From a virus: a stretch of DNA of 47,734 nt. Below are positions 23,986 through 44,390 of the stretch, piece after piece; the first letter of the stretch is position 1; each line of letters starts with the position of its first letter. Below the pieces are notes generated by a model. It searched no databases. It saw only the letters and a program-made list of their open reading frames with translations, and had not been told where the DNA came from. Location of the stretch: positions 1 through 47,734 of the IMG/VR virus record IMGVR_UViG_3300010396_000016, one strand, 5' to 3'. The position numbers and the translations under genes are program-made.

Positions 23986-24182
23986 TACTTGTTCACGGTT
24001 CTGCTTCCGATGTACTGGCTGAGGTCGCCACTGAGCGCGTGGAGTGCACCGTACAGCCACGTATACGCCAAGCTCGCGTTTGGGGGAGGATCGGGCATCG
24101 AGCTGACGAAGGCGCTGAAAATGTAGAATGCGATCAGCGCATCGGCGCCATGGGCTTGGATGAAATTGAACATAGCTGCCAC
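23985..24182 (-). CDS. Holin-like small membrane protein
   Basis: 65 residues, ATG at 24182. One membrane segment at about 15-29 (ALIAFYIFSAFVSSM), then a turn SSMPDPPPNASLAYTWLYG, which I recall from small phage lysis-region proteins. Size and position next to the lysozyme-like gene suggest a holin; the C-terminal part is polar. Confidence 0.65.
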   Translation of the reverse strand: MAAMFNFIQAHGADALIAFYIFSAFVSSMPDPPPNASLAYTWLYGALHALSGDLSQYIGSRTVNK

Positions 24183-24557
24183 CTAAAGCTCGCAAAACAT
24201 GGTCGAGACCTCGCACCCCAGCGCCCTTGCGAGTGCCGCCGCGTAGCCGGCTGGGTCGTTGGAATCGCTCGCGGGAGCGTAGCCGGGCCAGCCGCGGGGC
24301 TGCCCATCCCCGGCGATAAAAGCCGCGAGTGACTGGCCTGGCCAGCGGGCCGCATGGTTGGCGAGGTCCATCTCAAGCTTGGCGCGGCCAGTTTCATAAT
24401 CAGGGAAGACCGAGAAACCCCCATCGTCAACCGGATAACCGGGCCAGTCGCGCAAATCTCCGGGGTTGCAATTGCGCGTCGGCCGCGCTTCTGGAGGGCC
24501 GTAGCCTTCCTCGTGCTGAATCGCGTCCGCGAGTTTGCGCAGGTTGTCGTCGATCAT
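24183..24557 (-). CDS. Lysozyme-like endolysin
   Basis: 124 residues from ATG at 24557. The pattern AIQHEEGYGPPEARPTRNCN then PGDLRDWPGYP, a FSVFPDYETGRAKLEMDL helix and a later GW/GY region match the compact glycosidase/transglycosylase-like domain (NPGDLR box) common in phage endolysins. The catalytic Glu would be in the HEEG segment. Located among membrane genes, as expected of a lysis cassette. Confidence 0.7.
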   Translation of the reverse strand: MIDDNLRKLADAIQHEEGYGPPEARPTRNCNPGDLRDWPGYPVDDGGFSVFPDYETGRAKLEMDLANHAARWPGQSLAAFIAGDGQPRGWPGYAPASDSNDPAGYAAALARALGCEVSTMFCEL

Positions 24558-24558
24558 G

Positions 24559-24837
24559 TTATTTCCTGCGCCGCCCGAACCCCAGCTTGCGCCTGATCTC
24601 CGCTTCCTCCAGCTTCGCTGGAAACCCGAGAGCTGCGCGTACGTGCGCTTCCGTAGGCTTTTCCCCATGGGCCATGTGGTTAAATACGCTAGCGCGCAGC
24701 ACGTCCAGATCTTGCCGGATGGGTTCAAGCTCCTGATGGATAACGGCCCGGAGCACCCAGAGGCAGACTGAGCCAAGCAGCGTTGCGAGTGCCACCAACG
24801 CCCCGACGCCAGCCCAGAATGTAACCGTGAAGGTCAT
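24559..24837 (-). CDS. Small membrane protein, possible holin or i-spanin
   Basis: 92 residues, ATG at 24837. One N-terminal span (FWAGVGALVALATLLGSVCL) and a charged helical C-terminus with basic end (RRKLGFGRRRK). This N-in, helical-tail layout fits an inner-membrane spanin or holin in the lysis cassette; no outer-membrane spanin lipoprotein was found nested in it. Confidence 0.6.
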   Translation of the reverse strand: MTFTVTFWAGVGALVALATLLGSVCLWVLRAVIHQELEPIRQDLDVLRASVFNHMAHGEKPTEAHVRAALGFPAKLEEAEIRRKLGFGRRRK

Positions 24838-24838
24838 G

Positions 24839-26950
24839 TTAGTTTTGTACCCAATTGACCGTGCTGGTGTCGGTGCCGCTCGTGCTCGTGATGGTGAAGC
24901 CCGTTCCTGCAGTCTGCGAGCTAACGCGAAGAAACCCCGGCGTGCCCCCTGAAGTCCCGAGCGTGAGGGCGATAACCCCGGTGGTCACGCACGCGTTTGA
25001 GACCGTGACGGCACCCGCGACCATGGCGGCGGATGTGCCGGAACAGCCGTTCGCGAGCACCGCAACCGTGGTCTTGCCCGTCAGTGTGGGGCCAGCCGAA
25101 GTGACGAGCGTCCCGCCGGTGCCCGTCTGCCCGGTGAGCGCGGTGCCACCGTTGATCGACACGCTTGGGGCCGACACCGCGCCACCAAACGCCGCCGCTA
25201 GCGTTGTTGGGGTGAACGTCAGCGCCGATGTGTTCGTGGAAAAGTCACACAACGACGAGGTGTTTTGATTGAGCAGCAGTGACCCGCCGGAGTTGACCAG
25301 CCGCCAAAGGCCACCGACGCCGCACGCGGTTCCGGTGCTCCGGTCCCACAATCCAGCGTTCGCGTTCGCCGAGATCTGCGGATCGCCGTTCGTGGCGTCG
25401 AACACTAACGGCGCGGGCGACGTCAATAGGTCGTTGTCGTTGCCGTACTCCCGCACGTTGGTTGCGGCCCCGATGTTGTACTGGCCGGTGGTGTTGCCCT
25501 GGGACTTGTTTCCGGCGAGAAGGATGTCATCGCCAGCGTTCAGGTTGAAGCCGTACCGGCCGCAACCTTCGGCCGTGTTGCCGGTGAAATTCACATTGCT
25601 GATTGATGTGGCGTCGCCGCCGCCGTTCCATGTGAAGTAACAATCCTGGGTCGCCGCGCCCGTGCCGGTCACAACGCTGCCGGTGACCTGAACGTTTTTG
25701 GCCGACCGCACCATGATCCCGGTGCTGCCAGCGGTGTTGCCGGGCTGAACCTGGTTGCCGGTCACCGCGATGTCATGGGTCGCCTGCCCGACCTCGATCC
25801 CGGTGTCCGCGTTTCCATGTACGCGGTTGTGGGAGATGACGCCGTAGCCGGTGCCGAACGTGCCGCTACTCAGGCTCCCGATGACGAAGATGCCGTCGGC
25901 CACGCCCGAGCCGCTCACGTCATTGTCGATGATCGAGAAATACTGCACCTGTGCGTTGGGCGGTGTGTTCCCGAGGATGATACACGACCCGTGGACCGCG
26001 ATGGCGATGACGTTATGGGCGATCAACACATTGGAGCTTGTGCCGAAGACCCCAATGCCGTGTGTGTAGCAGTTCTGAATTGTCGCGTTCTCGATGCGAA
26101 CGCCCGTTACCGAGGTAAGGGCCACGCATGACCCGGAGGTTTCGTTGGCGTCGTTCCCGTCGATCGCAAGGTTCGACAGTTCGATATTGCTGGCGCTGGA
26201 CGCGGTGACGAAATCGGCATCTACGCCGACGTTGGCCTTTAGGGTGCTGCCGAGCAGGCCGCCGAAGCCGGTGAGCTTGCAGTTCGATGGGATGGCAATC
26301 GCCGCGCTCATCGTAACGCCTGCGGGCAGAATCACCCAGCCGGGCGCCGTTCCGTTGCAGGCGGACGAAATCGCCAGCGCCAAAGTGGAGAATTGGTCGG
26401 CAAACCTCACCTTCTCAATATTTGGCGACAGTATGCTGGAGCCGGCCGCGCCGCTTAAAAGTCCATGGTTGACGGTTGTGCCGAACAGGTCGCCGTTTGT
26501 CATCTGGTTGGTGCCGGTGGACGGCAACGCAATAGCGCTCGCGCTCAAGGTCGCGCCAATGTTTTGGCTCGCTCCCGTCATCGTTATGAGGACCGTGAAG
26601 CAAACCGACTGCTGGCCACTGATGCGCTGCGAACAGATCGTCCACTGCCATTGCGATGGCGCCGGGGTGATTTGGTTGTTGTCCGCCACGACCGTCGTAA
26701 ACTGGCCTGCCGAGTTCATCGCGCCCACAACGGTCGTTTGGAAGGTCGAGCCGTTTAGGAGCGGCAGTTGGCTGATCCCGGATTGGTTAACCCAGACGCC
26801 TTGAAACGTCCCGTTGGCATAGGCGCGGCCAAACGGGTCAACGACCGTCGCCGAGACATTAACCTGCTGGGCGTAGCCGAGCGACGAAAGCAGCGCGACT
26901 CCGAACGCGATACCGCGAAACGCCCGTAGTGTCTTTTGTTTGCGGTTCAT
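24839..26950 (-). CDS. Beta-helix tailspike-like protein with signal peptide
   Basis: 703 residues from ATG at 26950. A basic N-terminus and hydrophobic stretch (RGIAFGVALLSSLGYA, then QQ) look like a cleavable Sec signal. The centre (about 180-520) is a right-handed parallel beta-helix: regular Asn/Asp/Gly ladders such as IENATIQNCYTHGIGVFG and IEVGQATHDIAVTGNQV, as in pectate-lyase-fold tailspikes. The C-terminal 150 residues are Thr/Ser/Gly-rich repeats. Likely binds or degrades host surface polysaccharide. The signal peptide is unusual for a virion protein. Confidence 0.8.
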   Translation of the reverse strand: MNRKQKTLRAFRGIAFGVALLSSLGYAQQVNVSATVVDPFGRAYANGTFQGVWVNQSGISQLPLLNGSTFQTTVVGAMNSAGQFTTVVADNNQITPAPSQWQWTICSQRISGQQSVCFTVLITMTGASQNIGATLSASAIALPSTGTNQMTNGDLFGTTVNHGLLSGAAGSSILSPNIEKVRFADQFSTLALAISSACNGTAPGWVILPAGVTMSAAIAIPSNCKLTGFGGLLGSTLKANVGVDADFVTASSASNIELSNLAIDGNDANETSGSCVALTSVTGVRIENATIQNCYTHGIGVFGTSSNVLIAHNVIAIAVHGSCIILGNTPPNAQVQYFSIIDNDVSGSGVADGIFVIGSLSSGTFGTGYGVISHNRVHGNADTGIEVGQATHDIAVTGNQVQPGNTAGSTGIMVRSAKNVQVTGSVVTGTGAATQDCYFTWNGGGDATSISNVNFTGNTAEGCGRYGFNLNAGDDILLAGNKSQGNTTGQYNIGAATNVREYGNDNDLLTSPAPLVFDATNGDPQISANANAGLWDRSTGTACGVGGLWRLVNSGGSLLLNQNTSSLCDFSTNTSALTFTPTTLAAAFGGAVSAPSVSINGGTALTGQTGTGGTLVTSAGPTLTGKTTVAVLANGCSGTSAAMVAGAVTVSNACVTTGVIALTLGTSGGTPGFLRVSSQTAGTGFTITSTSGTDTSTVNWVQN

Positions 26951-26975
26951 ACTTGGTTTCCGTTTGACGTAGTGC

Positions 26976-27899
26976 TCATTGCGCGCAGGTCCCCGCAATC
27001 GGCGCAGCGGTGAAATTACCGCTGCCCATCAGATACTCGGTCTCGCCGGTCATGCAGCTCGTCCATTGGGTCGCGGGGGCGGTTCCCCCGAGTTTGGCCG
27101 CTACGGGCGCGGCAGTGGCAAACCACGTCTGCGCATACTGCCCGGTCACGGTCGCGCCGGCGTTGGTGATCGAGTAGGCGCACGCGAGCTTAGGCGCGGG
27201 CGGCGGGCACGGCACGGTTGCCACCGGGGATCCAGTGACGCGTGCGGTGGCCATGAGGTCGAGCACCACGGCGTCAATCGGGTAGCCGGCGTTGGCGTTC
27301 GATCCAGTCGCGGCCCCGAGCGTGAGGCCCGCGACAACCGGCCCGCTCGCGTAGAGCGTCCTGACGGTCGAGCCGAGCGCGGTCGAGCCCGACGGGACGG
27401 TCCACGTCTGCCCGACCGCCGCGTTGAAGCAGGCCAGTAGAAGATCATCAGGATTGAGATTGACCAGCCCTGCCGATGGGCTCGGCGTGGTGCTCACGGC
27501 CACGTTGGACACCGCCCCGATGCCCGCCGCCCCGCTGTACTCCAGCGCGACGGCGGAGAGGTCAACCCCGCAGCAGGCCGCGACCTTGATGGTATCGGCA
27601 CCGCCCTTGATCGCGGCCGCGTGGAAGGCGAACAGGTAGGCCCCGGTGGCCGTGCTGCCGAGCCCGGCGGCATCTTTGACGTAGACGTTCCCCTGAGTGT
27701 CGCTCAGCGCCGTGGGACCGTAAGTGATTGAGGTCCACGAGATGAGCACCACGACGGTATTGCCCGCAGTGGTGTTGTTCGGGAAAACGAGCGTTCCTCC
27801 GGCTCCAGGCGTACCGGCAACGGACTGCACCAGCACGGGCGCGGCCGCGCACCATGCGGCGAGGGCGACGGCCAACAGGATGGTCTTGAGCGCCTTCAT
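26976..27899 (-). CDS. Exported beta-sandwich protein
   Basis: 307 residues from ATG at 27899. Residues 1-20 (MKALKTILLAVALAAWCAAA) are a clear Sec signal. The rest is a Gly/Ala/Val/Thr-rich beta protein (GNTVVVLISWTSITYGPTAL, then SDTQGNVYVKDA, VALEYSG) like adhesin/carbohydrate-binding sandwich domains I recall from secreted proteins of soil bacteria. Four Cys may form disulfides outside the cytoplasm. Lies between two other signal-bearing genes. Confidence 0.75.
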   Translation of the reverse strand: MKALKTILLAVALAAWCAAAPVLVQSVAGTPGAGGTLVFPNNTTAGNTVVVLISWTSITYGPTALSDTQGNVYVKDAAGLGSTATGAYLFAFHAAAIKGGADTIKVAACCGVDLSAVALEYSGAAGIGAVSNVAVSTTPSPSAGLVNLNPDDLLLACFNAAVGQTWTVPSGSTALGSTVRTLYASGPVVAGLTLGAATGSNANAGYPIDAVVLDLMATARVTGSPVATVPCPPPAPKLACAYSITNAGATVTGQYAQTWFATAAPVAAKLGGTAPATQWTSCMTGETEYLMGSGNFTAAPIAGTCAQ

Positions 27900-27951
27900 T
27901 AGTTCGACCCGAACGTATCCGGCCCCAGCAATTCCAGCGGGGCCTCCGGCC

Positions 27952-29016
27952 TCAGTGCGCGGTCAGGCCGATCCATGTCACCTTGCCACTCGTCGCCGCT
28001 AGCGTTGGCGGCGTGATATTGGCCGGGCATGTTCCACTCAGTCCCGTCTCGAAGGTGTAATTGATATAATTGGCAGGATTCCCAATGCCGTTAAAACCTC
28101 CAGCTTCCGCCGCTGTTAGGCCGCCGCCAGCGCTCGTCACCACGCCGAAAAAATAATCTCCGGCGCTGACACTGATCGGGCCACCTGTGACCGGAATCCA
28201 GTCGATTGCGTCGCCCTGCGTAGTGCGCGGAGCGGCTGCAACGAGCGTTCCAGTCGCGTTGAATAGACAGACCGACCACGCCGCATTTCCCGCTCCGGCT
28301 TGCGCATCCACGGCAATCTTGGAGAGCGATATCGCCGCAGGGAGCGACACCGAGAACAGGGCGAGGGCACCATCCGTGAAGGCCGTCGGCGTGCCGTTTC
28401 CGATGGTGTCGTTCTGCATGAAGCCTACGGTCGAGCCTCCGCCGCTTATCGTGGCCCATTTGCCGTCGCCTTCGAGGTAGGTGTTGCTGCCGGGCGTTCC
28501 GGTCGCGCTGATGCCGCTCACCGGAAGCCCCGTCGCATTGGTCAGCGTCAAGCTGCTCGGCGTGCCATAGGCTCCGTTCTTGGGCCAGCAGCCGTCCGTG
28601 GTGGCACAGGCGGTCGCGGTCCCGGCGTTCCCGGAGGTCGCGTTGCTGATCGTTCCAGCGCCCAAACCCGCCGCCGGGACGCTGGTCGCTGCAATGGTGC
28701 CGCTGCCCGCCGGCGCCACGCTGGCTCCCGATCCCACCACCATCGTGGCCGAGGTGTTCGTGCCACTGCTGAGCGCTGACCACGCCGTCGAGGCCGTTCC
28801 CGCACAGCTCGAACTCAGCCACTTCCCGGTGCTCGAGCTATAGACCAGACACGTCCCATTGCCGGGCGCGGCATTGTCCACCGGCACGCCCTGCAACGCC
28901 GTGGCATTGCCGGAGCCGGAGCCGCCGCCGCCAACCCCTGGATTACCGACGGCTACGCTCTGGCCAAGCGCCGCGCATGCAAACAATAGAGCCGCAAATA
29001 GTGCCCGTTTCGTCAT
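27952..29016 (-). CDS. Exported tail-fibre-like protein
   Basis: 354 residues from ATG at 29016 (TGATG joint with the previous gene). N-terminal signal (MTKRALFAALLFACAALG). The middle carries collar/fibre-like text TYLEGDGKWATISGGG, typical of the shaft-to-tip transition of phage fibres, and low-complexity Thr/Ser/Gly; the C-terminal third is a beta domain with paired Cys. A fibre with a signal peptide is unexpected. Confidence 0.75.
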   Translation of the reverse strand: MTKRALFAALLFACAALGQSVAVGNPGVGGGGSGSGNATALQGVPVDNAAPGNGTCLVYSSSTGKWLSSSCAGTASTAWSALSSGTNTSATMVVGSGASVAPAGSGTIAATSVPAAGLGAGTISNATSGNAGTATACATTDGCWPKNGAYGTPSSLTLTNATGLPVSGISATGTPGSNTYLEGDGKWATISGGGSTVGFMQNDTIGNGTPTAFTDGALALFSVSLPAAISLSKIAVDAQAGAGNAAWSVCLFNATGTLVAAAPRTTQGDAIDWIPVTGGPISVSAGDYFFGVVTSAGGGLTAAEAGGFNGIGNPANYINYTFETGLSGTCPANITPPTLAATSGKVTWIGLTAH

Positions 29017-29393
29017 CACCGCCCCCACATCACGTACGCCTTTTCACCGTTGGCGCTGGCGTCCACCGAAAGGGTTGAGAGGTCGATGCCGCCAACCGTG
29101 AACGGCGGCGTGATCGATTGCCCAGGACTGGCCACGAGCCCGATGTTTCCGCTTGGCCCTTTCAGGTAGATGTAGGACGCGGCGGTATTGGTCGGGTCCG
29201 CCTGGATGACCAAACTGTGGGCGATGAAACTGACCCCGCCGTTTAGCGGGACCGGCGTGCCCGCGGTCGTGACCGTGATTTCGGCGGTTGCGTCAATCGT
29301 GTTCAGGGGCGCGGGGCTCCACGTCATGAACGCGGTCGCCATCAGCAGGAGCGACATCAACGCCGCGATCCATAAGAGATATTTATTCTTCAT
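29016..29393 (-). CDS. Small exported or membrane-anchored beta protein
   Basis: 125 residues; ATG at 29393 follows GGAGG. N-terminal hydrophobic segment (YLLWIAALMSLLLMATAFM) preceded by two Lys: signal peptide or anchor. The remainder is a compact beta domain (HSLVIQADPTNTAASYIYLKG) like small decoration or fibre-base proteins. First of four consecutive signal-bearing genes. Confidence 0.75.
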   Translation of the reverse strand: MKNKYLLWIAALMSLLLMATAFMTWSPAPLNTIDATAEITVTTAGTPVPLNGGVSFIAHSLVIQADPTNTAASYIYLKGPSGNIGLVASPGQSITPPFTVGGIDLSTLSVDASANGEKAYVMWGR

Positions 29394-30109
29394 TGTGCTT
29401 TGCCTCCAATTGCGTGATCCCTCGACATCCCGACATCCTTCAGCGGATAAGAGTCCGGGGGAAGGTCGTAAACGGTTCCGTCGGCCCCGAGGTGTGAGCA
29501 GACGATCCCACCATCCATCAGGACAGGGAAGCCCGCGTCCGCCAGTTTCCGGCAGAAATAGAAGTCCTCGCCGTAGTGACCGCCGCTATCTTGCCCAACC
29601 TGAAACCATGGCTCGGGAATCTGCCGCACCGTCGCCATGCGGACCAGCAGGCAGCCCGCCGGGGCGTAGTAAACGGGGAACACGTCGCCCAACTTCCATT
29701 TCCAATGGGGCCCGGCGTTCTCCCGGACCCAGACAAGCGGCTGGGGCGGCGTTTCCTTGCTGACCTGGACCGCGCTGACGGCCCCGCAGTCGGGGTTCTG
29801 CTGCATCGTGTAGAACAGGTTGCACAGCGCCACGGCTGGCGGCACAACGTCATCGTCAACGAACAGGACATATTCGAGGTTGTGCTCGATTGCGGCCCGC
29901 AGGATCAGGGTCCGGGCCTTGCAGATGCCATTGATCGTGCAGGCCAGGACCGCCCGCTTCATCCCGACCGGAACCGCGAGGTTCATCATGGCGACCTCGT
30001 GCTCTGGCCAGACCTGACGGCCCGGCATGTAGCAGAGCCCGATCCCAACCCCGGCCCATTGGCCGTGGCCGCCCGCTTCGCTCCGTGGTTTCATTTGGAC
30101 AACCGCCAT
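29390..30109 (-). CDS. Glycosyltransferase (GT-A fold, family 2-like)
   Basis: 239 residues from ATG at 30109 (TGATG joint). Features: an N-terminal MAVPVG-like nucleotide strand region, the metal-binding DDD at 85-87 inside YVLFVDDDVVPP, a GCLLVRM strand, and GEDFYFCRKLADAGFPVLMD (180-199) with the ED motif that in GT2 enzymes holds the acceptor-activating acid. It would transfer a sugar from an NDP-sugar, to an unknown acceptor. Direct neighbour of four exported proteins, so virion or surface glycosylation is a reasonable idea. Confidence 0.8.
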   Translation of the reverse strand: MAVVQMKPRSEAGGHGQWAGVGIGLCYMPGRQVWPEHEVAMMNLAVPVGMKRAVLACTINGICKARTLILRAAIEHNLEYVLFVDDDVVPPAVALCNLFYTMQQNPDCGAVSAVQVSKETPPQPLVWVRENAGPHWKWKLGDVFPVYYAPAGCLLVRMATVRQIPEPWFQVGQDSGGHYGEDFYFCRKLADAGFPVLMDGGIVCSHLGADGTVYDLPPDSYPLKDVGMSRDHAIGGKAQ

Positions 30110-30300
30110 CACGCCCTCCGTCCGCGCTTCCGGTCGCGCCGCGATTTCGCCTTCTTGTCCACGGCGCGGCCGCTATGGATGACCTTGTGCTCTTTGCCCG
30201 CGACCACCACGTCCCGCGCGGTAAACGGGATGTTGTGGATATGGCGATACGCCAGGCTCTTGCGATACGCCTCCCGGCTTTTAAAGTGTTCGACCGGCAT
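30109..30300 (-). CDS. Small conserved phage protein (AYRKxLAYRHIH)
   Basis: 63 residues, ATG at 30300. Begins MPVEHFKSREAYRKSLAY then RHIHNIP, a segment I recall as recurrent in small phage proteins encoded next to virion genes; the C-terminus is basic (KKAKSRRDRKRGRR). Function unknown. Confidence 0.75.
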   Translation of the reverse strand: MPVEHFKSREAYRKSLAYRHIHNIPFTARDVVVAGKEHKVIHSGRAVDKKAKSRRDRKRGRRA

Positions 30301-32702
30301 TACTGGCCCCCTCCCGCCGCGAGAATCGGCTGCGCTGGCGTTGCCGGGTTGGCACCCGGATACGCCTGCTCAAACTGGTGGAGCTGGCCGCCCGCCTGAT
30401 ACCGCTGCATCAGTTGCACCCCAATGGCGGTGGCGCGGGCTGCGTTGGCGGCGGCGGACCGCATCAGAATTACTTGCGCGGGGCCACGCGCCGACGCCGA
30501 CTGAACCGAGTCCTCGACCGCCTTGAGCATGTAGCGGGTGGCGGTCGGGGACGTGACAATCGACGCCATAGTTCGGGCGATCAAGAAACCGCCGAGCGCG
30601 CCCGTGGCGTAGGTCGTCATGAAACTGGACGGCCCCTTCGATGATGTCTGGAAAGGCGCGGTCAACGCGGCCCCGATCCCCATCATCACGGGATAGTGGG
30701 CCCAGCGCAGAATCTGGGCCGATTTGCTCGGGGTGATCCGGTTTACGACCTTGCCGATGTCAACGAGATTGTCGAATGCCTCGCGGGAAGGGCCATGCGC
30801 GCCGAAGATCGCGTCGATTTTAGACGGCGAAATTTTCTCAACGCTCTCCGGCAGCTTCGCCAGGTCCGCCATGCTCCACCCGACCGGCGCCTTTTCCGCG
30901 CCATTCGATAAATATCCGCGCGTGGCAAGTTCGGCCCCCTGGGGATTGCCGAGTAACTGCTGGGTCATGGCGACCCGTACCTTGTCCTTGGCCGCTTGTG
31001 CCGCCAGTTTTCCCGCGCGCCCCGAGTGGCCAAGTTGATCGAATCCGTTAAACAGGGATTTCACATCCTCGTCCGTGACTGTCGGGCTCGCGACGGTCAC
31101 GCCAACGTCATCGAGGTTGCCTTCGAGGATCTGCTTCCCCAGCCCGTCCCGGAAGCTGCTGGCGTTGTGGTAGAACTGGCGCGCCTCTTTCCACGCGGTA
31201 TTGCCTTTGGTCCCGGCGGTTGCCTTATCGATATCTCCAAACAGCTCGTTCGACAGCTTCGACGCCCACAGTTTCTGCATCGCGGCGTCGGGGTCGCGCG
31301 GGTCGGGCCGGAACTCCGCGAGGTCTTTCAGGGTCTGGTCCGCCACCGGGAACGGGATCGACGGGTTGCGGCGCGCCTTGCTTAATACCGCGAGAAAGTC
31401 GCCAATATCGCCCCGAAGAGCCGCGAGCCCATTGTCCGCCGCAACCGCGATGCTCTTGCCGGTCCGGGGGTCGATCAAGGTGCTGGCAGGGGCCGGAGCG
31501 TTGGCAAAATCCATCAGGGACTTGGCCGCGGTCTGCATTTTCTTCATGTCGCCAGACCGCATCGCGGCTTCGAGTTCCGGCCCAAACTTTGCAAGCTGGG
31601 CGTTGTTGCCAAGAACCCGGGGGTCCGTGAGGGCGCGGGCGACCTCATCGGCGACGGCGTTGGCCTCAGGGGCTGCCTGCTGCGCGGCCGCGCGGTCGAT
31701 GCTATCGATGAAGCTCCCGGCGATGGCCTGGACCTTCGACATCGCGGGGGTTTTGACCATCCCGGCGGTCGGGCCAAACAGTTTGCCCTGCAGGGCCGAT
31801 TCCACGGTCGGCATGGATTTGCCGAGCGGCACGTTCACCTTGCCGTTTAGTTCGTTGGCAGTGTCCCACAGGGAGTTCGCCCGGGCGCTGAACTCGTGCT
31901 GGGCGCCGGTCACGGCATCCCGGAGCGCGTCGCGCGTTGCCGCGGTATCGAGTTGGCGCGGTCCGATTGCCGCCATCTGGTCCCGCGCGGCACCGGCGGC
32001 GGCGTCCTGGATCCCTTTGGTCCGGGCGAGCGGGCCGAACCCCTCGACCAGCGTGCGGAACTTTCCCGCGATCTCGGGTGGCCCGGCCCCGAGGCCGAAC
32101 TTCTCCGAAATGGCGGCGATCGCGCGGTCCGCTGCCGTCATGGCCCCGCCACTCATGGCCTTTTTCAGCAGCGCCTTGCCGCCGAACTGGAGCCCTTGGC
32201 CCCCAACCTCGAACAGCCCCTGCTCGGCCCCGGACTTGAGAGCCGTCTTTGGCGAGAACCTGCCGCCTTGAATGACCTGCTGGGCCGAGTTCCCGGCCGC
32301 TCCCCCGAGTGCCGCCCCAATCACCGGGATGGCAAACGACGCGCCGAAGGTTTCGGGCGCGAGCGCGCCAGCCGCTAGAGAACCGCCGATCCCCCCGAGC
32401 ATCGCGCCGATCCCGCTGGAACTATGGGCGGTCTTGTACGCCTTGGCCCGGGTCGCCAGGGTATCGACAATCTCCTGCTGGTCCTTCGGGTCAAGTCCGG
32501 TCCATTGCGGGTAAAACGCGACGCTGGCGAAGGTCCGGATACCCTTCGGATCGTTCTCGGCATTGAACCGGACGATGGATTGCACGGCGTTCTGGGCCGC
32601 TGGCGAAAGCGGGCGCTCGGAATCGGGCACCGGGGCCTTCGGCGGCGCGGGCGCGGCTGCTTTTGGCTTTACGGACGCCAGCGCCGGGATGATGATTCCC
32701 AT
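30300..32702 (-). CDS. Large internal virion / ejection-type protein
   Basis: 800 residues, ATG at 32702. Ala/Pro-rich N-terminus, then Gly/Ala-rich hydrophobic stretches (SSGIGAMLGGIGGSLAAGAL, AIPVIGAALGGAAGNSAQ) that could insert in membranes, followed by a long helical body with many charged residues and a second hydrophobic patch near 690-740. Size, place after neck genes and membrane-active stretches fit the DNA-ejection proteins of short-tailed phages. A tape measure protein is the alternative but no tail-tube genes exist. Confidence 0.65.
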   Translation of the reverse strand: MGIIIPALASVKPKAAAPAPPKAPVPDSERPLSPAAQNAVQSIVRFNAENDPKGIRTFASVAFYPQWTGLDPKDQQEIVDTLATRAKAYKTAHSSSGIGAMLGGIGGSLAAGALAPETFGASFAIPVIGAALGGAAGNSAQQVIQGGRFSPKTALKSGAEQGLFEVGGQGLQFGGKALLKKAMSGGAMTAADRAIAAISEKFGLGAGPPEIAGKFRTLVEGFGPLARTKGIQDAAAGAARDQMAAIGPRQLDTAATRDALRDAVTGAQHEFSARANSLWDTANELNGKVNVPLGKSMPTVESALQGKLFGPTAGMVKTPAMSKVQAIAGSFIDSIDRAAAQQAAPEANAVADEVARALTDPRVLGNNAQLAKFGPELEAAMRSGDMKKMQTAAKSLMDFANAPAPASTLIDPRTGKSIAVAADNGLAALRGDIGDFLAVLSKARRNPSIPFPVADQTLKDLAEFRPDPRDPDAAMQKLWASKLSNELFGDIDKATAGTKGNTAWKEARQFYHNASSFRDGLGKQILEGNLDDVGVTVASPTVTDEDVKSLFNGFDQLGHSGRAGKLAAQAAKDKVRVAMTQQLLGNPQGAELATRGYLSNGAEKAPVGWSMADLAKLPESVEKISPSKIDAIFGAHGPSREAFDNLVDIGKVVNRITPSKSAQILRWAHYPVMMGIGAALTAPFQTSSKGPSSFMTTYATGALGGFLIARTMASIVTSPTATRYMLKAVEDSVQSASARGPAQVILMRSAAANAARATAIGVQLMQRYQAGGQLHQFEQAYPGANPATPAQPILAAGGGQ

Positions 32703-33748
32703 TAGGCACCCCCTCCGTACAGCAGCGATGTTGCGCCGCCGCCGTTCGGGGATGCCGCCGCCGGGCTCGCGAGGTAGCCGATGAGGTCGTCGATGGCCTT
32801 GACGCGGGCGCGGCCCGTGCTGCCGGGGATCAGGCCACCGGCAGGCGTTTGGACGGCCTTGAGAAGCGCCGTGAGGGTCGGGCCGCTCTTGCCCGTGACC
32901 TTTGCGAGGTCGGCGGCGATCCCAAGGAGCGCGCTGGTAAACGCATCGTTTCCCGGCATGTTTTTCGCCAATTGGGCCGCGTTCGCAAACCGGTCGTAGA
33001 TGGGTCCTGTTTTGGCCGCAATGGCCGCGTCCACGGCGGCCCGGTACTTGGCCGGTACATCGGCCTTCGGCATCGCGCCCGAGGCCACCCGGTCGGCAAG
33101 GCCCTGGATATAGGCCGAGCCCGCTGGCGTCGGGGAGCCGCCGGGATTCGGTGCGGCGGGCGCGGACGCGGACGCGCCGCCCCGCTGGGTTGTGCGCTTC
33201 GAGGTCGTGACCAGCCCGTTCACGGGATCGACCGACTGGGTGGTGCTGACCGTTGGGGCGGTCGCGAGTGCCTGGGGCGCAATCGTGACGCTGCGGCCAA
33301 TCTCGACGTGGCTGACGGGCGTACCGGCGGGATCGTTGGGGTCGTACGCGTCCATGTAGTTGACCGTGATTTTTTTGCCGTCGGGCCCTTCGGTGACCTC
33401 GCTCGACGGTTTGAAAATCAGCTTGGAATCCGCGCCATAGCCAGCTGGGATCGGCACCTGCACGGTCTGGTTGGTCCGGTTGTTCATCAGGACCACGCCG
33501 TTTTTGCCAGCGGAAATGCGGCTCCAGACGCCCGCTTGCGCCGCCTCCTGTTGCGCGTTGAACCGTGCCTGTTCAAGCTTTTGGGCTGTATCGGTCTGGC
33601 CAAGTTGCCGCGCCTGGAGAGCCAACTGCCTGAGCTTTTCCTGGTTGTCGAATTGCTGCTGGGCCTGGGCGGACTTCTCCTGCCGCGCCGCCAACGCGCC
33701 TTGCGCGAGTTGGGATCCCATTTGGCCCAATGCTTCGAGGAATGCCAT
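32702..33748 (-). CDS. Virion-associated protein, 348 residues
   Basis: ATG at 33748, overlapping the previous stop by one base. N-terminal 75 residues form a Gln/Ala-rich coiled coil (QQQFDNQEKLRQLALQARQL), the middle is beta-rich, and the C-terminal half is Ala-rich helix. Composition and position match internal or ejection-type proteins of podoviruses. Not recognised as a named family. Confidence 0.65.
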   Translation of the reverse strand: MAFLEALGQMGSQLAQGALAARQEKSAQAQQQFDNQEKLRQLALQARQLGQTDTAQKLEQARFNAQQEAAQAGVWSRISAGKNGVVLMNNRTNQTVQVPIPAGYGADSKLIFKPSSEVTEGPDGKKITVNYMDAYDPNDPAGTPVSHVEIGRSVTIAPQALATAPTVSTTQSVDPVNGLVTTSKRTTQRGGASASAPAAPNPGGSPTPAGSAYIQGLADRVASGAMPKADVPAKYRAAVDAAIAAKTGPIYDRFANAAQLAKNMPGNDAFTSALLGIAADLAKVTGKSGPTLTALLKAVQTPAGGLIPGSTGRARVKAIDDLIGYLASPAAASPNGGGATSLLYGGGA

Positions 33749-34380
33749 CAGAACAGCCCCCCGAGAACGGAGTTGAGCCATCCAGGGTCCGCCGCGATCC
33801 CGGGGTTTGTGCTGCCGGGAATATTGGGCCAGGTTGTGTACGGGCCGGTCGGCGTGCTCGACTGGGGCGGGGTTGCGCCCGGTTTGTTGGCGGTGGCCGG
33901 CGCGCCCCCAAGGATGAGTTGCCACAACGCCGAGGTATTACTCGGCGCGGAGAAAAGGCCGGGATTTTCCTGCGACGACAGCATGGATTCGTACTCGGAC
34001 GCGGCCTGCTGTTGTTGCTGCTGGAGGTATGGGGCGAGCGCTTGGCTCACGACTTCGGTTGTGACCGCGGGGCTCTCGTTGAGCCCGCGCTCCCCAAGGT
34101 ATCCCTGGGCCTGGTTCTCGACGCCGGAAATGAGTCCAGAACTCAGCGGTTGCTCCAGCCCGTGGATCGCGGCGGCGGTTGATGCGGGCGTTTGACCCAA
34201 AATCTTGTTTCGCAACGCGTCCTGTTGGCCCTGCTGGAGATAGTTCGAGATGGTCCCGGCGCCCGCGAGGCCCAAGGCAGCGGCCTTGAGCGGGTCTTTG
34301 GTGATGTCGCCAAGGAGCGCACCACCGCCGCTGCTCGCGGCGGATCCAATCGAGCTCAAAATGCTGCCAATCGAGTTCAT
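33748..34380 (-). CDS. Virion-associated protein, 210 residues
   Basis: ATG at 34380. Gly/Ala/Ser-rich hydrophobic N-terminus (LLGDITKDPLKAAALGLAG), a Gln-rich helix (LAPYLQQQQQQAASEY) and a Pro/Thr-rich tail. Same style as its neighbours; likely one of three small ejection-type proteins. Confidence 0.65.
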   Translation of the reverse strand: MNSIGSILSSIGSAASSGGGALLGDITKDPLKAAALGLAGAGTISNYLQQGQQDALRNKILGQTPASTAAAIHGLEQPLSSGLISGVENQAQGYLGERGLNESPAVTTEVVSQALAPYLQQQQQQAASEYESMLSSQENPGLFSAPSNTSALWQLILGGAPATANKPGATPPQSSTPTGPYTTWPNIPGSTNPGIAADPGWLNSVLGGLF

Positions 34381-35847: not shown

Positions 35848-38112
35848 CTAGACGCTCGACGGCGGCGACACGATTGTCGGGACTCCGCCGCCGGAATTTT
35901 TAGGCTCGACCTCCCAATCGACGGCTTCGACCTGTATGCGGCCACTCCCGGCGACAATGGCGCTGGCGTTCATCGCGATATTTCGGAGCGCCGCCACTAT
36001 CTCGAATGCCTGCAATCCGAACCCTTGGGCCGCGCCCGCGTACATGCCCGCGTTCGCGGCGGTTGCCGCAAGCCCCTGGTACTGCGGCGTCACCGTCAGG
36101 CTCGGGGTGTCGAGGTAGCCGCCCCGAAGTTTGAGACCACGGAAATACAACCGGGTGTCGCCGCCGTCCGCGAAAACGTTGGCAGTTTGGAACGACCACG
36201 ACACCTTCGTCCCGTCAAACGTAATGTCACCGGCAAAAAGTCTCCGCAGCGTGCCGTCAGTGTCGCCGCACACCACCGTGATCGGGATCGTGCCCTCCGC
36301 CCGGACCTGAATCCCAGCGCTCACGTCGAACGGCAGGTCCAGCAGGGTCCACACCTTGAGCACCAGGTCGTAGCACGCGACACGCGACAGCCTTCCGTTG
36401 GCCGTGGACAGCAGCGGAAACGCCACGCAATACATCGGCGGGTTGGCCGACTGCCACGCGCGCGAAAGATGCACGTAGGACCAATCGAGCGGCGAGATGT
36501 CGGTCGAATCCGGGTCGGGGAACAGGTAGGGCCTGATTTCCTCGCTGATGACCCGATCCCGCACCCCGTCATATACCGCGACCCCAAGGTGGGTCATCCG
36601 AACAATTCCAAACCCCGGCACAAACAGGATTGTGCGGGGCGCAACGCAGCCCATGTCGGTCTGGGCCTGTTGAATCGAAAAATCGGATGCGCCGAAAACG
36701 CCCGTGATCTCGTAGGTTGAGAAGTCCTTGAAAAGGACCAGTGTTCCCTGGGGCGCGATCCCGGCTTCCGCCACCGTGAACGTCGCCATCCCCATGCCCT
36801 GAGTTCCGTCCGATTTGTTGACGAACGCGGTATTGAGAGGGTTCCACGAGTTAGGGTTATCGGAATCCGACATCTTGAGGCAGCTCGGCCCGTCAAGCCC
36901 GTCGGTCGTGTTGGTCGGGTATGTGTTCCAAAGCCATAGGGAGCCCGCGTAGACGATTGCATGGGCGGCGCCGCGCGGCGCCACCGCCGACGCCAACCCA
37001 CTGTTCTGCCAAATGGCCGTTCCGTCGGCATACTGGTCGCCAAGAAACTCGGTCCACGTGGGCGCGGACGAGCCGGTGACGCCACCTTGAATCGTGGTGA
37101 AAACATACGCGGTCGAGCTTACCGACGCGGTGATGACGCTACCGACCGGGAACGCGGTTGCCGCCGCCCACGCGGGCCATGACGCCGTGAAATGGTTTGC
37201 CAGGGGCGTCGCAGTGGTGCCGTCGTATTGTTGGGGCGGCACGCCGTTTGAGAGGGCGAAGATCGCCTCGTTCACGAACGGCACGATCTGGGGAATTTGA
37301 CTCGATACCCCGACGATCCCGCCCGCCGGGTTGATCGGGCCACTCCCGGTGTTGGACCCGCCGTAGCCCCCAATCGTCTGGGCGTCCATGCCGCACGGCG
37401 TTTTGACCGTGGAGGGGAACCGCGCCACAATGTCTCCGGGTCCGGAATACGAACTGCCCGTGATCTTCCAGAGCCACATCTGCTCGGTGGTGTTTTGCGT
37501 CGGCGGCAACTGCGAGCCGCGTCCATAGCCGGTGTCGATGAAACTGACGGTCGGGATCAGGACTTGGAAAATCAACGCCTCGGACCCGGGGCTCCCGTTC
37601 GCGTCGGTCCGATAGATGTTGTAGGCGTACGCGTTGGCCACCGCGTCCCATGAAAGGTCTGCCTTGTGGCCAGACGCCCCGAATGTGAAACTTACCTCGG
37701 CGCTGGGGGTGGTCTCGCCGTTGATGTCGAGCGCGGTGATGACCCAGCGGTACGTCGCGGCGGTCAGGGATCCGCCGGTCCCACCGTCCGCGACCGCGAG
37801 GGATCCGGGAGCGGCGAGCGGATCGGTCGATTCGCTCTGAAGCGCGAGATAATACGGCGGCGGTGCCGTCTGGGTCGATGGCAGCGCGACCGGCTGGAGG
37901 GTGCCGAGACCCCAGAAAAAACCCGTGGCCGTGGGGCCGGCGCCGTTCAGGGAACTGATAATCTTGGACCCATCGCACGTTCGCAGCGCACCACGGCGCG
38001 TAAAGACCATGTTGGAGATGGCCTTGACGATGCCTTCCGGCTGAGAAAAGATCGAGGCGGCCGCGTTCACGCCGCGCAAGAACTTGTTCTGCGTGATGAC
38101 CTTGAAAGCCAT
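35848..38112 (-). CDS. Large beta-rich neck/tail protein
   Basis: 754 residues from ATG at 38112, sharing its A with the preceding stop. N-terminus MAFKVITQNKFLRGVNAAAS followed by long, evenly spaced beta-strand repeats (YRWVITALDINGETTPSAE, MRVYDGVRDRV-like blocks), with immunoglobulin-like and propeller-like texture. Place and size match the tail hub / stabilisation proteins of short-tailed phages (gp10-like) that follow the adaptor. Exact family not certain. Confidence 0.7.
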   Translation of the reverse strand: MAFKVITQNKFLRGVNAAASIFSQPEGIVKAISNMVFTRRGALRTCDGSKIISSLNGAGPTATGFFWGLGTLQPVALPSTQTAPPPYYLALQSESTDPLAAPGSLAVADGGTGGSLTAATYRWVITALDINGETTPSAEVSFTFGASGHKADLSWDAVANAYAYNIYRTDANGSPGSEALIFQVLIPTVSFIDTGYGRGSQLPPTQNTTEQMWLWKITGSSYSGPGDIVARFPSTVKTPCGMDAQTIGGYGGSNTGSGPINPAGGIVGVSSQIPQIVPFVNEAIFALSNGVPPQQYDGTTATPLANHFTASWPAWAAATAFPVGSVITASVSSTAYVFTTIQGGVTGSSAPTWTEFLGDQYADGTAIWQNSGLASAVAPRGAAHAIVYAGSLWLWNTYPTNTTDGLDGPSCLKMSDSDNPNSWNPLNTAFVNKSDGTQGMGMATFTVAEAGIAPQGTLVLFKDFSTYEITGVFGASDFSIQQAQTDMGCVAPRTILFVPGFGIVRMTHLGVAVYDGVRDRVISEEIRPYLFPDPDSTDISPLDWSYVHLSRAWQSANPPMYCVAFPLLSTANGRLSRVACYDLVLKVWTLLDLPFDVSAGIQVRAEGTIPITVVCGDTDGTLRRLFAGDITFDGTKVSWSFQTANVFADGGDTRLYFRGLKLRGGYLDTPSLTVTPQYQGLAATAANAGMYAGAAQGFGLQAFEIVAALRNIAMNASAIVAGSGRIQVEAVDWEVEPKNSGGGVPTIVSPPSSV

Positions 38113-39005
38113 TACGGTACGATGATTCCCCCGGAGACCGAGCCGTAGAACGTCTCGCGTCCAGAAACTCCAGATCCCAACTGTTGCGGCCCAACCAGCA
38201 CTTGGTCCTGATTCCCAAGCGTCGCGGACGCCTGAATGAACTCCTTCTTGAGGCTTGCGGCTTCCTGGCGCTGGGCTTCGGACTCGCGGAACCGCGCCAA
38301 CATCCAATCGGTCAGGAGCGATTCCCACTCCATCGGGATCGCAATGACCAGACCGGCGTCGCCTGCTCCATAAGACGGCGGCATCCGGCGGCCCGCGAAC
38401 CGGATATTGAGTTCGGTCACGGCGGCGCCGGTTGATGTCGAGGCGGCGACGGTGCCGCCGAGCCCGCGGGTGCAACCGTAAAGCGTGGTCGGGGTGAATC
38501 CCTGGTAGTTGACGATTTCTGACCCCACCATCGCGAGGCCGAACGGCAGGACAAACCCGCCGGTTGACGCCACCGGAATCGTCGTGGTGGTCGTGGAAAT
38601 AGGAGCCGACGTGGTGGTCTGGCCGCTGGTGCGGGGCGGCTGAGGCCACATCTCTACGATCTGTACATTGGAGCCCTCGCTGAGGGTCGTGAGCGCCGAG
38701 ATGCCCGTAACGGAGTTGTGGTAGAAAATCTCCCGGTGCTGCACCAGATTGACGGTGTAGCCGTCGTACCAACAGTCGGTGATCTCGCGCCAGTACCCGT
38801 TGAATGTATAGAGCGGCTGGCCCGTGACCGAACCGATCCCGGTCTCGGACCTAATGCCGTTCGACGCCTGTGCGCAGAGCTTGAGGGCCTCGTTGAGCCA
38901 GCGGTAGCACGTTGCGGCGCTGACTTGGAGGCCGTCCGCATCCGCCGTCGCGGTAACGTCGGGGAAGAGGTCGCGCGCGCTCAGGATGATGTCGCCTACG
39001 GTCAT
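38112..39005 (-). CDS. Head-tail adaptor protein
   Basis: 297 residues from ATG at 39005. Begins TVGDIILSARDLFPDV and RWLNEALKLCAQASN, the helical opening of phage adaptor (gp4/TTPA-like) proteins; the middle is a Thr/Ser beta insertion and the end is helical (MARFRESEAQRQEAASLKKE, first letter illustrative). Lies between capsid and neck genes, as expected for a portal-to-tail adaptor. A terminator sits immediately before its start. Confidence 0.7.
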   Translation of the reverse strand: MTVGDIILSARDLFPDVTATADADGLQVSAATCYRWLNEALKLCAQASNGIRSETGIGSVTGQPLYTFNGYWREITDCWYDGYTVNLVQHREIFYHNSVTGISALTTLSEGSNVQIVEMWPQPPRTSGQTTTSAPISTTTTTIPVASTGGFVLPFGLAMVGSEIVNYQGFTPTTLYGCTRGLGGTVAASTSTGAAVTELNIRFAGRRMPPSYGAGDAGLVIAIPMEWESLLTDWMLARFRESEAQRQEAASLKKEFIQASATLGNQDQVLVGPQQLGSGVSGRETFYGSVSGGIIVP

Positions 39006-39522: not shown

Positions 39523-40506
39523 TTACATGCCGGTGATGCAGACCTGCATGCGGGGGCTGAGACAAATCAACTGCCACGTCAGGTACATCGTGGTGGTGAT
39601 GACCCGCTGGTTGGACGGCTTGAGCCACGGGTCCGCCGTGAAGTAGTCGGCGATGTGGTACACCGGGTACAGATACTTCGTGTTCAGCAGGAACCCTTGG
39701 GTCGCCGTGACAAACGGGTCAGGCGTCACGATGGCGTTGTTGAACAGGAAGTGGTAGCGGAAGCCGGCCTGGAGCGCCTCGGTGTCCTGCTTCTGGGCCC
39801 CGTCGTTCGGGATGAACCTGGGGGTCGCGGTGAACTGGGTCTTGAACCCAGCGTACGACGTGTTGGTCATGGGGAACAGGTCCGGCTCATCGAACCCGAG
39901 CACCACCGACTGGTACGCGGATTCGGCGTTCGCGATGGTTAGGGGCGCGGAGCTGTTCGAGACGTTGGCGGCGGGTTGCCACGCGGTCACGCTGGAGCGG
40001 TTGATCCCGGCGATGGTGTTGGTGGTCTGGTAAACCCAAGCCGGGATATTGTCGATGTCGAGCGAGGTGTTCTGCGGCGCGGTGCCCCACATCGCTCGGC
40101 TGAGTTTCTGGAGCAGCGACGCGGACGCGATCTGAAACTTGGTTTTGACAATATCGACCGAGTTTCCGCCCCGGTTCAACTTGATGTCGTTGATCGGGAT
40201 CGTGACCGCCTGGTAGTAGCTGCGCCATTGCTGCTCGGCGGGCTGCACCGAATCGGTGACCGCGGTGTTGAGCACCTGGTCTCCCCAGAAGGCCCCGCCG
40301 GTCAACTCCTCCTGCGTGATGATCGGGTAGACGATGGCGCCCTCCCCGAACTTCTTGCCACGCCGGTTCATCGCCCAAAATACCGGCGACGGCTTGAACG
40401 TGACATCCCCAAGGGTCCGCAGAATATGCTTCTGCGTGATCGCGTCCATCGTGTTGATGAGCGTTACCGGGGGCTGAAATAGGCCAGTACCGATTGTCCC
40501 TGCCAT
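39523..40506 (-). CDS. Major capsid protein
   Basis: 327 residues, ATG at 40506. N-terminal arm-like segment, then LRTLGDVTFKPSPVFWAMN, GGAFWGDQVLNTAV and IPINDIKLNRGGNSVDIVKT, typical of HK97-fold phage capsid proteins; the end is a beta/aromatic domain. Preceded by a scaffold gene and followed by a decoration-like gene, the usual order. Capsid function is the clear reading by position and size. Confidence 0.85.
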   Translation of the reverse strand: MAGTIGTGLFQPPVTLINTMDAITQKHILRTLGDVTFKPSPVFWAMNRRGKKFGEGAIVYPIITQEELTGGAFWGDQVLNTAVTDSVQPAEQQWRSYYQAVTIPINDIKLNRGGNSVDIVKTKFQIASASLLQKLSRAMWGTAPQNTSLDIDNIPAWVYQTTNTIAGINRSSVTAWQPAANVSNSSAPLTIANAESAYQSVVLGFDEPDLFPMTNTSYAGFKTQFTATPRFIPNDGAQKQDTEALQAGFRYHFLFNNAIVTPDPFVTATQGFLLNTKYLYPVYHIADYFTADPWLKPSNQRVITTTMYLTWQLICLSPRMQVCITGM

Positions 40507-42462: not shown

Positions 42463-42672
42463 TGGGACCGCGATCCAGTGATGCCCGAATTGGTCACGGT
42501 ATAGACGGAATCCGAAGTCAATGACCGCGCCGTTCGCGCACGATTGACGCGCCCATTCCGGCGTCCTGTTGTAGATCTCGGAAAACTCTCTCACTGTGAC
42601 CCAACGAACTTTACCAGGGGCCTCGGTGGCCCACGGGGGAAGCGGAGCGGTCGGTGTCGCCATCGGGCTCAT
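42454..42672 (-). CDS. Small excisionase/MerR-like helix-turn-helix protein next to portal
   Basis: 72 residues from ATG at 42672, ATGA-overlapping the portal stop. After a Pro-rich start, RWVTVREFSEIYNRTPEWAR and a WI-ending strand form a small winged-helix like the excisionase family. A DNA-binding protein between portal and downstream capsid genes is unusual; it could be a packaging cofactor. Confidence 0.6.
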   Translation of the reverse strand: MSPMATPTAPLPPWATEAPGKVRWVTVREFSEIYNRTPEWARQSCANGAVIDFGFRLYRDQFGHHWIAVPIN

Positions 42673-44390
42673 TTGCGTTTCAGCCGCGCGATCGCCGCGA
42701 TCTTTTGATCGGTCTCGATCAACTCCGCGATCCGTTCGGCGTTGGGAACCTGCAAAAACTCCAGCGCGCTCTTGGTGTCGATCATCCCGAGCTTGCGGAG
42801 GTCCGGCACCATGCGGCGCAATACCGACGCGGATTGCGGCCGCACTGATCCGGGGTCTACCCACACGTTCCAGCCCGACAATTCCTTGTCGCCGATGGCT
42901 TTCCAGTTTTGAATCGCGGCTCCATTGTCGCCGTCCGGCACGATGAAGCTTTGGTCCTGCGAAAACTTCGCCATCATGTAGAACATCTGCTCGGCGAGAC
43001 GCTGGACCGAGCGGGCAAGGAACATGCCTTTCAGAACCGTTAGTTTCTGGGCCTGCCCGACCGCCGCGTCGAAGAGGTCGCTCCCAACGTTACCCGCCCC
43101 GGGGTTTCCCTGGCGAGACTGCGTGTAGCCGTGAAGTTCTTTCTGGAGTGCGAGCAACTGCATCGGAAGGCCAACGAGATGTTGCGGCATCGGGGCGGGC
43201 CATTCAATCTTGGGCGGGGTGCTGCCCGCGTTATAGGTCAGGATTTCGCCCGGGAGCCCGAGGTAGGTGTCGGCCCCAATGCCCGAGCTTTTGTCGATCA
43301 TGACGGTCCCGTTGTTCAGCCGGATGGCGTTCTCGTACGTCATGGCCATCATCTTTTGCGCGATGGTCTGGAGGTCGCGTGTATAGCGGGTCGGCGGAAC
43401 GCCCCAGAACCCGGTCAATGGCGGGAGCCCAAGGAACCTGACGATGGGGAAACCGCGGTGCGGAACCCAGTTGTCTCCGTCGAACAGGACAACGCCTTCG
43501 CAATCGATGATGAGGCGGCCGTTCGGCCAGCGCGGCACTCGCTTGGGCGCCACGACCAAATCGGAAGCCGCAAGCTGAACCTCCCGGTCCACGTCCTTGA
43601 CGGAACTGTCGAAGATGAAGGCATACCGGACCCGATACCGGCCATCGTCCTGGCTCTGGGATGAGGAATCGGGCGTGTAGCCGCCGCCCCCATACCGCAT
43701 CGGCCCGGGCGTCATCTGGAGGGTGAACGCGGGGCTCCCGGGGGTCGGGGTGTCGGAGTTGGCCGCGCCCCGTCCTTTACGCTTTATCGCCGCCGCCGTC
43801 TCACCCCAATGGGCCTGAATCTGGTCGAGGTACATCCGGTCCTCGATGATCAGGTAGGTCAAATCCTTCTCACACGAGGCCGAGGGATCGGGGAAGATGT
43901 CGGCGGGGTTTCGGCTCGCAACCCAAGTTTCTCCCGCGCCGTTGCGGGCGCTGGCGTCGTGGCCAAACTGGAGGATGCCGGTTCCACTGAGGTTCGCCCA
44001 CAACTCCGCCATGAAGATTTCTAGGTTCCAAAATCCCTGGCGCCACTCAGCTTGAATCGCCTTCTCGCGGGCCTCATCGCGCGCGTCGCGCTTGGCGATG
44101 TAGACCAGCGGCTGCATGTCGGCCAGATCGGTCGCCTCCGCCAGCATCAGGGTCTGGAGCTGCGGGATGTCGATCTGGGGCCGGTAACTCGGGGCCTGCA
44201 TGATCTTCTGGCGCAGCGTGTAGAACCCCTCGATTTCGAAGAAGTAATCGTCGCCGTCGAGGCGTTCGCGCCGATCCTCGGCGGACAGGCGCTGGAGCGC
44301 GTCGATCTGCTCGCACCGCTCATCCTGCGACGGGCGCGACTTAGCCGCGGTCACGATTTCCATGCGGGGCGTTGGGATGAACGTCGCCAT
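42669..44390 (-). CDS. Portal protein
   Basis: 573 residues, ATG at 44390. Helical, with the features of a podovirus portal: a DMQPLVYIAKRDARDEAREK segment, the FWNLEIFMAELWANLSGTGI helix, FPDPSA turn, and a long crown helix (LFDAAVGQAQKLTVLKGMFL). Forms the dodecameric ring at the head vertex through which DNA is packaged. Sits between the terminase genes and scaffold in canonical order. Confidence 0.85.
   Translation of the reverse strand: MATFIPTPRMEIVTAAKSRPSQDERCEQIDALQRLSAEDRRERLDGDDYFFEIEGFYTLRQKIMQAPSYRPQIDIPQLQTLMLAEATDLADMQPLVYIAKRDARDEAREKAIQAEWRQGFWNLEIFMAELWANLSGTGILQFGHDASARNGAGETWVASRNPADIFPDPSASCEKDLTYLIIEDRMYLDQIQAHWGETAAAIKRKGRGAANSDTPTPGSPAFTLQMTPGPMRYGGGGYTPDSSSQSQDDGRYRVRYAFIFDSSVKDVDREVQLAASDLVVAPKRVPRWPNGRLIIDCEGVVLFDGDNWVPHRGFPIVRFLGLPPLTGFWGVPPTRYTRDLQTIAQKMMAMTYENAIRLNNGTVMIDKSSGIGADTYLGLPGEILTYNAGSTPPKIEWPAPMPQHLVGLPMQLLALQKELHGYTQSRQGNPGAGNVGSDLFDAAVGQAQKLTVLKGMFLARSVQRLAEQMFYMMAKFSQDQSFIVPDGDNGAAIQNWKAIGDKELSGWNVWVDPGSVRPQSASVLRRMVPDLRKLGMIDTKSALEFLQVPNAERIAELIETDQKIAAIARLKRK

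Follow-up and report, generated by a model that had tools for sequence, protein, structure and literature searches.

The window analysed here, i.e. the whole 47,734-base stretch of the virus record IMGVR_UViG_3300010396_000016, carries 123-bp direct terminal repeats at both ends, and is a complete phage of 47.6 kb. Four consecutive open reading frames (ORFs) of its late region, called g1 to g4, run on the minus strand from 29393 to 24839, and each begins with a putative signal sequence. The run had been noticed in a first-pass annotation made from the letters alone, and was found in place. The features are listed below (aa, amino acids; score, signal-peptide score; pLDDT, predicted local distance difference test).

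29016..29393, minus strand: g1, small protein, 125 aa (ORF); predicted signal peptide or signal anchor, codons 29331-29393, score 6.14
27952..29016, minus strand: g2, fibre-type protein, 354 aa; predicted signal peptide MTKRALFAALLFACAALG followed by Q, codons 28963-29016, score 6.10
26976..27899, minus strand: g3, beta-rich protein, 307 aa, 8 Cys; predicted signal peptide approximately at codons 27843-27899, score 5.99
24839..26950, minus strand: g4, tail-spike-like protein, 703 aa (Pfam; AlphaFold model); predicted signal peptide MNRKQKTLRAFRGIAFGVALLSSLGYA followed by Q, codons 26870-26950, score 5.86
26516..26869, minus strand: g4 N-domain, residues 28-145, transthyretin-like beta-sandwich with the C106/C117 pair (pLDDT ~95; alignment with relatives)
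25511..26431, minus strand: g4 right-handed beta-helix, residues ~174-480 (PF13229, Beta_helix; fold matches)
24848..25045, minus strand: g4 C-terminal K1-lyase_C domain (PF24146; E 6e-15)

The N-termini read MKNKYLLWIAALMSLLLMATA in g1, MTKRALFAALLFACAALG ahead of QSVAV in g2, MKALKTILLAVALAAWCAA in g3 and MNRKQKTLRAFRGIAFGVALLSSLGYA ahead of QQVNV in g4, and all four have the n/h/c anatomy of signal peptides. Gene calls and scores are home-made; the scorer weighs the n, h and c regions, and 17 out of 17 Escherichia coli signal peptides score above 5.1. By this measure the sequences have the positive n-region, the hydrophobic h-region and the small residues at -3 and -1 typical of Sec and signal peptidase I substrates. 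Signal-peptide prediction, the check proposed in the first-pass annotation, singled out the same genes, since only g1-g4 among 77 genes called in the window reach at least 5.45 at their own start. Across the six frames, 1.2% of open start codons attain such a score, and the probability that four such genes among 77 fall by chance in one run is 5e-5. In control phages (P22, T7, lambda, phiKMV, SP6, two distant capsid relatives and the Bacteroides phage crAss001) the scorer flags lom, spanins and other small membrane proteins, and no spike or fibre.

The g1 gene starts at an ATG (29393) with a GGAGG ribosome site, and the ATG of g2 (29016) overlaps the g1 stop codon. The hydrophobic segments of the window genes are therefore most likely translated. 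The g3 and g4 genes start at ATG codons at 27899 and 26950, respectively; listed alternatives, a GTG at 29028 for g2 and a TTG at 26998 for g4, would add four and 16 residues. The objection that translation may start downstream of the hydrophobic stretches is not supported, given the coupled or well-placed starts of g1 and g2, the conserved cleavage site, and the relatives lacking a signal peptide, whose spikes begin exactly at the mature residue.

Relatives were searched for with the capsid (57-61% identity) and with the tail hub protein (42-46% identity), the latter used as anchor, and approximately 40 viral loci were retrieved. Large proteins with signal peptides, up to 2,478 aa long, reside at or near the spike slot in 25 of the 27 records in which the spike region is readable, the window included; records from one collection may share ancestry, and protein counts are not fully independent. 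Signal peptides at the spike position are a trait of the lineage. None was found on the head and hub genes of the relatives. Among 212 upstream genes only 10 scored, all residing in an alternative fibre cassette located between capsid and hub (L041, L046, L048, L049, L051). In the two exceptions, G025 and G026, the spikes begin M-A-[QG]-Y-T, exactly at the site where the others are cut. In the hub tree the two form one clade (support 100/100) beside kin with signal peptides, and a single change thus explains both. Searches with the g4 N-domain, a module common to related fibres according to the alignment, added G016 and G018-G022, all of which host fibres with signal peptides. None of them matches the window lineage in capsid or hub, and G018, G020 and G022 have other head genes. 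Fibres with signal peptides are also found in phage G014, reached through g2. A chitinase domain (GH18) and a CBM5/12 module are found in spike-region proteins of G004 (L022, 2363-7281) that have signal peptides, and enzymes are thus part of the exported set.

The residue directly following the signal peptidase I site is Gln in 57 of 62 large proteins with signal peptides (92%), and the same rule holds for Asn, Asp or Glu in 5-13%; this contrast is a better measure than shuffled tails, which are Gln-rich and give Gln at +1 in 55% of the cases on average. Gln after the cleavage site is known as the Q-rule of Bacteroidetes (PMC5837995). The same preference, described as specific to Bacteroidetes, is seen in the secreted proteins of the acidobacterium Granulicella tundricola, where Gln at +1 fits 14 of 18 signal peptide-like proteins, a small sample, encoded by 250 kb of its plasmid pACIX901 (L118-L122). 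Together with a GC content of 52-65%, the match to Granulicella points to Acidobacteriota as the likely host group. One weak match to this plasmid lies mostly within the signal peptide, and is uninformative. No relative of hub or N-domain was found in GTDB genomes, and hence no prophage showing the host.

Among 44 distinct N-domains, 18 have cysteines at both alignment columns 66 and 109, 26 at neither, and none at only one (P = 1e-12); of a second pair, both cysteines are present in 29 of 29. In g4 the latter corresponds to C106 and C117, located in the AlphaFold model at the ends of two successive strands. Cysteine makes up 1.99% of the mature proteins with signal peptides versus 0.54% of the other late gene products, a 3.7-fold difference, and occurs in even number in 51 of 61 of the former (P = 5e-8) versus 45 of 77 of the latter (P = 0.09). 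Paired, even-numbered cysteines are an apparent signature of disulfides.

The g4 protein has the anatomy of a tail spike. The K1-lyase_C profile is matched at 55.9 bits, versus a curated cut-off of 27, and the domain is found in eight records, the window included, on spikes with or without a signal peptide. Fold matches include the tailspikes of Sf6 (7ukj_C, Z 11.6, root-mean-square deviation (rmsd) 17.5) and P22 (2xc1, Z 9.6, rmsd 13.1), and, for the beta-helix, modelled with only moderate confidence, below that of the N-domain, PL6 alginate lyases (Z 10.9, rmsd 4.1). The N-domain gave fold matches to fibres of the cyanophage A-1(L) (8kec_b, Z 8.1; 8keg_a, Z 8.0) and a tail-tip chain of Ur-lambda (9e7m_Ta, Z 7.0). 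Phage tail fibres with a lambda-like fibre N-domain are among the fold matches of g4 in BFVD; in Pfam the lambda-like tail-fibre N-terminal domain is not matched by the g4 N-domain at E up to 1. As a direct query, g4 found no match in viral contigs, and neither g1, g2, g4 nor the N-domain did in GenBank phages. By its sequence and model, g4 would work like a P22-like tailspike, but departs from the family by the predicted signal peptide, the Gln at +1 and the paired cysteines.

Late genes lie on the minus strand in the order terminase, portal, capsid, 974-aa hub, ejection-like genes, glycosyltransferase-like gene, g1-g4 and lysis genes. The order is of podovirus type, and in comparison with P22 the g1-g4 genes occupy the tailspike slot, after the genes for ejection proteins. 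Neighbouring features are the following.

45508..47286, minus strand: terminase large subunit (phrog_2)
42669..44390, minus strand: portal protein (phrog_156)
39523..40506, minus strand: major capsid protein (phrog_9953; 57-61% identity to relatives)
35848..38772, minus strand: tail hub, P22 gp10-like ('stabilization'; phrog_3287; 42-46% identity to relatives)
30300..34380, minus strand: three genes (800, 348 and 210 aa) at the position of the P22 ejection proteins (gene order versus P22)
29390..30109, minus strand: glycosyltransferase-like gene directly upstream of g1 (sub-threshold Pfam GT2 matches)
24183..24837, minus strand: probable lysis genes just downstream of g4, encoding a 92-aa membrane protein and a small endolysin-like protein (ORFs; weak phrog matches)

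The ejection genes are assigned in the window by position and size only; none of the three proteins has a signal peptide, and those of 800 and 348 aa lack cysteines. The glycosyltransferase-like product encoded next to the spike genes might modify either the host surface or the spikes.

The trait is also found in cultured phages of Acidobacteriota. A run of tail genes with signal peptides (L127, 9802-22744) is present in Tunturi_2 (PMC11924767), a podovirus infecting Tunturiibacter psychrotolerans. Signal peptides were assigned to gp12, gp13, gp14, gp16 and gp17 (1190, 675, 918, 149 and 1280 aa, respectively); gp13 scores just below the threshold, but its N-terminus reads MKWLSRLGLILLWPVAGFA followed by QTT. 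Genes annotated as tail fiber, pectin lyase and virion structural protein are among them. Mature cysteines are 20, 10, 20 and 34 in gp12, gp13, gp14 and gp17, the last counted on the full protein. The siphovirus Tunturi_4 has signal peptides on gp113 and gp114. Both phages resemble the window phage in their runs of cysteine-rich tail or structural proteins with signal peptides, but differ in the N-termini of the mature proteins. The term 'signal peptide' is absent from the main text of the paper describing the Tunturi phages (PMC11924767).

The g1 product lacks both Gln at +1 and cysteines, and its N-terminus may be an uncleaved signal anchor. It is weakly similar (37% over 49 aa, pairwise E 5e-5) to gp34 of Tunturi_2, a 'tail fiber' with no signal peptide; a likeness to L057, seen by eye, was not borne out by BLAST. 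The g2 product is related to late proteins of G014 that have signal peptides, and to a protein from the fibre region of a 332-kb viral contig that has none. It contains the motif GTPGSNTYLEGDGKW, shared with an L055 protein provided with a signal peptide; the GTPxSxTYLxGDGxW fibre motif occurs in just 2 of 59 proteins with signal peptides, and is no general marker. A near-lipobox (LFAC) in g2 raised the notion of a lipoprotein, which was discarded, most sites being of the signal peptidase I type. Family searches gave no match for g3.

Export of the spike proteins is well supported by the sequence features described. The notion that fibres are assembled in the periplasm or outside the cell, one of three put forward in the first-pass annotation, is compatible with the evidence and is the best reading. 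We assign a probability of roughly 0.6 to the hypothesis that g4, and probably g1-g3, are receptor-binding spike or fibre proteins made as Sec precursors, folded in the periplasm, and joining virions at or after lysis. Attachment of the exported proteins to virions is inferred mainly because the late genes of the window and of Tunturi_2 include no other receptor-binding candidate. According to this model, each spike chain would be threaded late in infection through SecYEG, and cut ahead of Gln by signal peptidase I, as the conserved sequence signature suggests. Periplasmic oxidation would then join the conserved cysteine pairs into disulfides, which would account for all-or-none pairing and even cysteine counts, and the chain would fold into beta-sandwich and beta-helix, presumably as a trimer. 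P22 tailspikes bind finished particles in vitro; similarly, the N-domain may dock onto spike-less virions leaving the cytoplasm at lysis. Exposed adhesins would plausibly benefit by gaining disulfides, unobtainable in the reducing cytoplasm, for survival in acid soil. A broader proposal is that several lineages of Acidobacteriota tailed phages finish their virions outside the cytoplasm, the whole receptor-binding module being Sec-exported, cut to Gln, disulfide-bonded and captured at lysis, with heads and hubs built inside; we hold the chances of this to be even.

Several observations weigh against periplasmic spikes. The spikes of G025 and G026, which have no signal peptide, keep a high and even number of cysteines, so that the cysteine signature alone is no proof of export; the counts suggest that the signal peptide was lost recently, or that export follows another route. 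G024 and G027 hold fibres of both kinds, and those with signal peptides might be an extra, non-virion set. Tunturi_4 has a tail fibre lacking a signal peptide as well, and Tunturi_3, which shares the host strain of Tunturi_2, has no fibres with signal peptides, and export is thus not required for that host. The fold of the g4 N-domain is common outside phages, and non-phage transthyretin-like folds reach equal Z. Plain enzyme domains, such as GH18 chitinase and CBM5/12 in G004, would suit secreted enzymes too. Genomes with both kinds of fibres, and the GH18 and CBM5/12 domains, keep alive the main rival, a doubtful one in our opinion, according to which the proteins, once exported, never become part of virions, and act as secreted enzymes or adhesins on the host envelope or matrix, for instance by opening the exopolysaccharide that surrounds the lysing cell, preventing superinfection or coating debris. 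Functional-looking Sec signals and lyase-like domains in relatives agree with it, as does the interpretation of Q-rule signal-peptide genes of Porphyromonas phages as envelope modifiers (PMC10367356). The exported adhesins or enzymes of the first-pass annotation are, in this sense, compatible with the data, but are not the reading preferred here. Secretion alone would leave the window, Tunturi_2 and most relatives with no other receptor-binding candidate among late genes, and does not account for the tail-spike anatomy of g4, nor for forms without a signal peptide in the same slot. A shared N-domain followed by variable C-termini is the usual plan of virion-docked fibres.

It is very unlikely that the hydrophobic N-termini are no working export signals, being kept as membrane or virion anchors, or skipped by translation beginning after them. 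The lack of a clear cleavage site in g1 and the two genomes which manage without the segment would fit, but Gln at +1 in 57 of 62 proteins, the n/h/c anatomy, the coupled start codons and the paired cysteines would not. Lysogenic-conversion or moron genes expressed to alter the lysogen, like lambda lom or P22 gtr, had also been envisaged for the late operon. Lom, which adjoins the lambda tail genes, has indeed a signal peptide (PMC12309495). Yet, the late-operon position, the tail-spike anatomy of g4, and signal peptides that recur in the spike slot of 25 out of 27 related records, as well as in unrelated phages, make this hardly credible. Entire gene runs are conserved in position across lineages, and lie in the structural region of Tunturi_2 and Tunturi_4; most such genomes show no other receptor-binding candidate. 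No hub relatives turned up in GTDB genomes, and there is thus no sign of integration, an integrase not having been searched for.

The periplasmic spikes here proposed share features with known systems. The tailspikes of P22 and Sf6, which rank among the best fold matches of g4, have the same place in the late order, after the ejection genes, a beta-helix trunk and a similar proposed tail-docking N-domain. In contrast, P22 gp9 and the other control tailspikes have no signal peptide, as is the case for the tailspikes of the Bacteroides phage crAss001, whereas the window spike is a predicted Sec precursor with paired cysteines, and several such genes occur consecutively. N-domains of the lambda-type side tail fibre and of the A-1(L) tail and neck fibres have a similar beta-sandwich fold (Z 7.0 to 8.1 across 86-91 residues), but begin at residue 1, whereas that of g4 follows a 27-residue signal peptide; such folds are common outside phages too, and the g4 N-domain matches no sequence family. 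Lambda Lom, spanins and superinfection-exclusion lipoproteins are phage-encoded, have Sec signals and reside near tail genes, but are single genes, neither receptor-binding nor found in virions. Filamentous phages likewise export virion proteins, their coat proteins, by means of signal peptides, and assemble them outside the cytoplasm; these phages, however, extrude through the membrane, whereas the window encodes a tailed phage with ordinary-looking head genes. Q-rule genes of Porphyromonas gingivalis phages (PMC10367356) similarly encode signal peptides exposing Gln, matched to the secretion habits of the host, but are of unknown function, reside in temperate phages of Bacteroidota, and have no tie to tail spikes. 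Literature searches, subscription papers and preprints not being covered, yielded no account of spikes with signal peptides as a system in tailed phages.

Assembly of tailed phages is taught as wholly cytoplasmic. The lack of a signal peptide has served as an indicator of the phage origin of proteins (PMC6199706). If spikes are exported, such a filter misses a class of receptor-binding proteins, and annotation pipelines would label them as bacterial secreted proteins. Capture of periplasmic spikes at lysis would be a new assembly step, and the suitability of disulfide-stabilised adhesins to acid soil a reason for it. The hypothesis is readily testable, since Tunturi_2 and its host are in culture.

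Two further features of the window are worth reporting. The protein encoded at 23470-24216 strongly matches phrog_1128 (E 1e-21), a family whose name (enoyl-CoA hydratase-like) looks wrong; judged by eye, its residues resemble a papain-like/YiiX hydrolase. The early region contains, within ORFs, two direct repeats of 67 nt (5893-5959 and 13395-13461) that are 79% identical.

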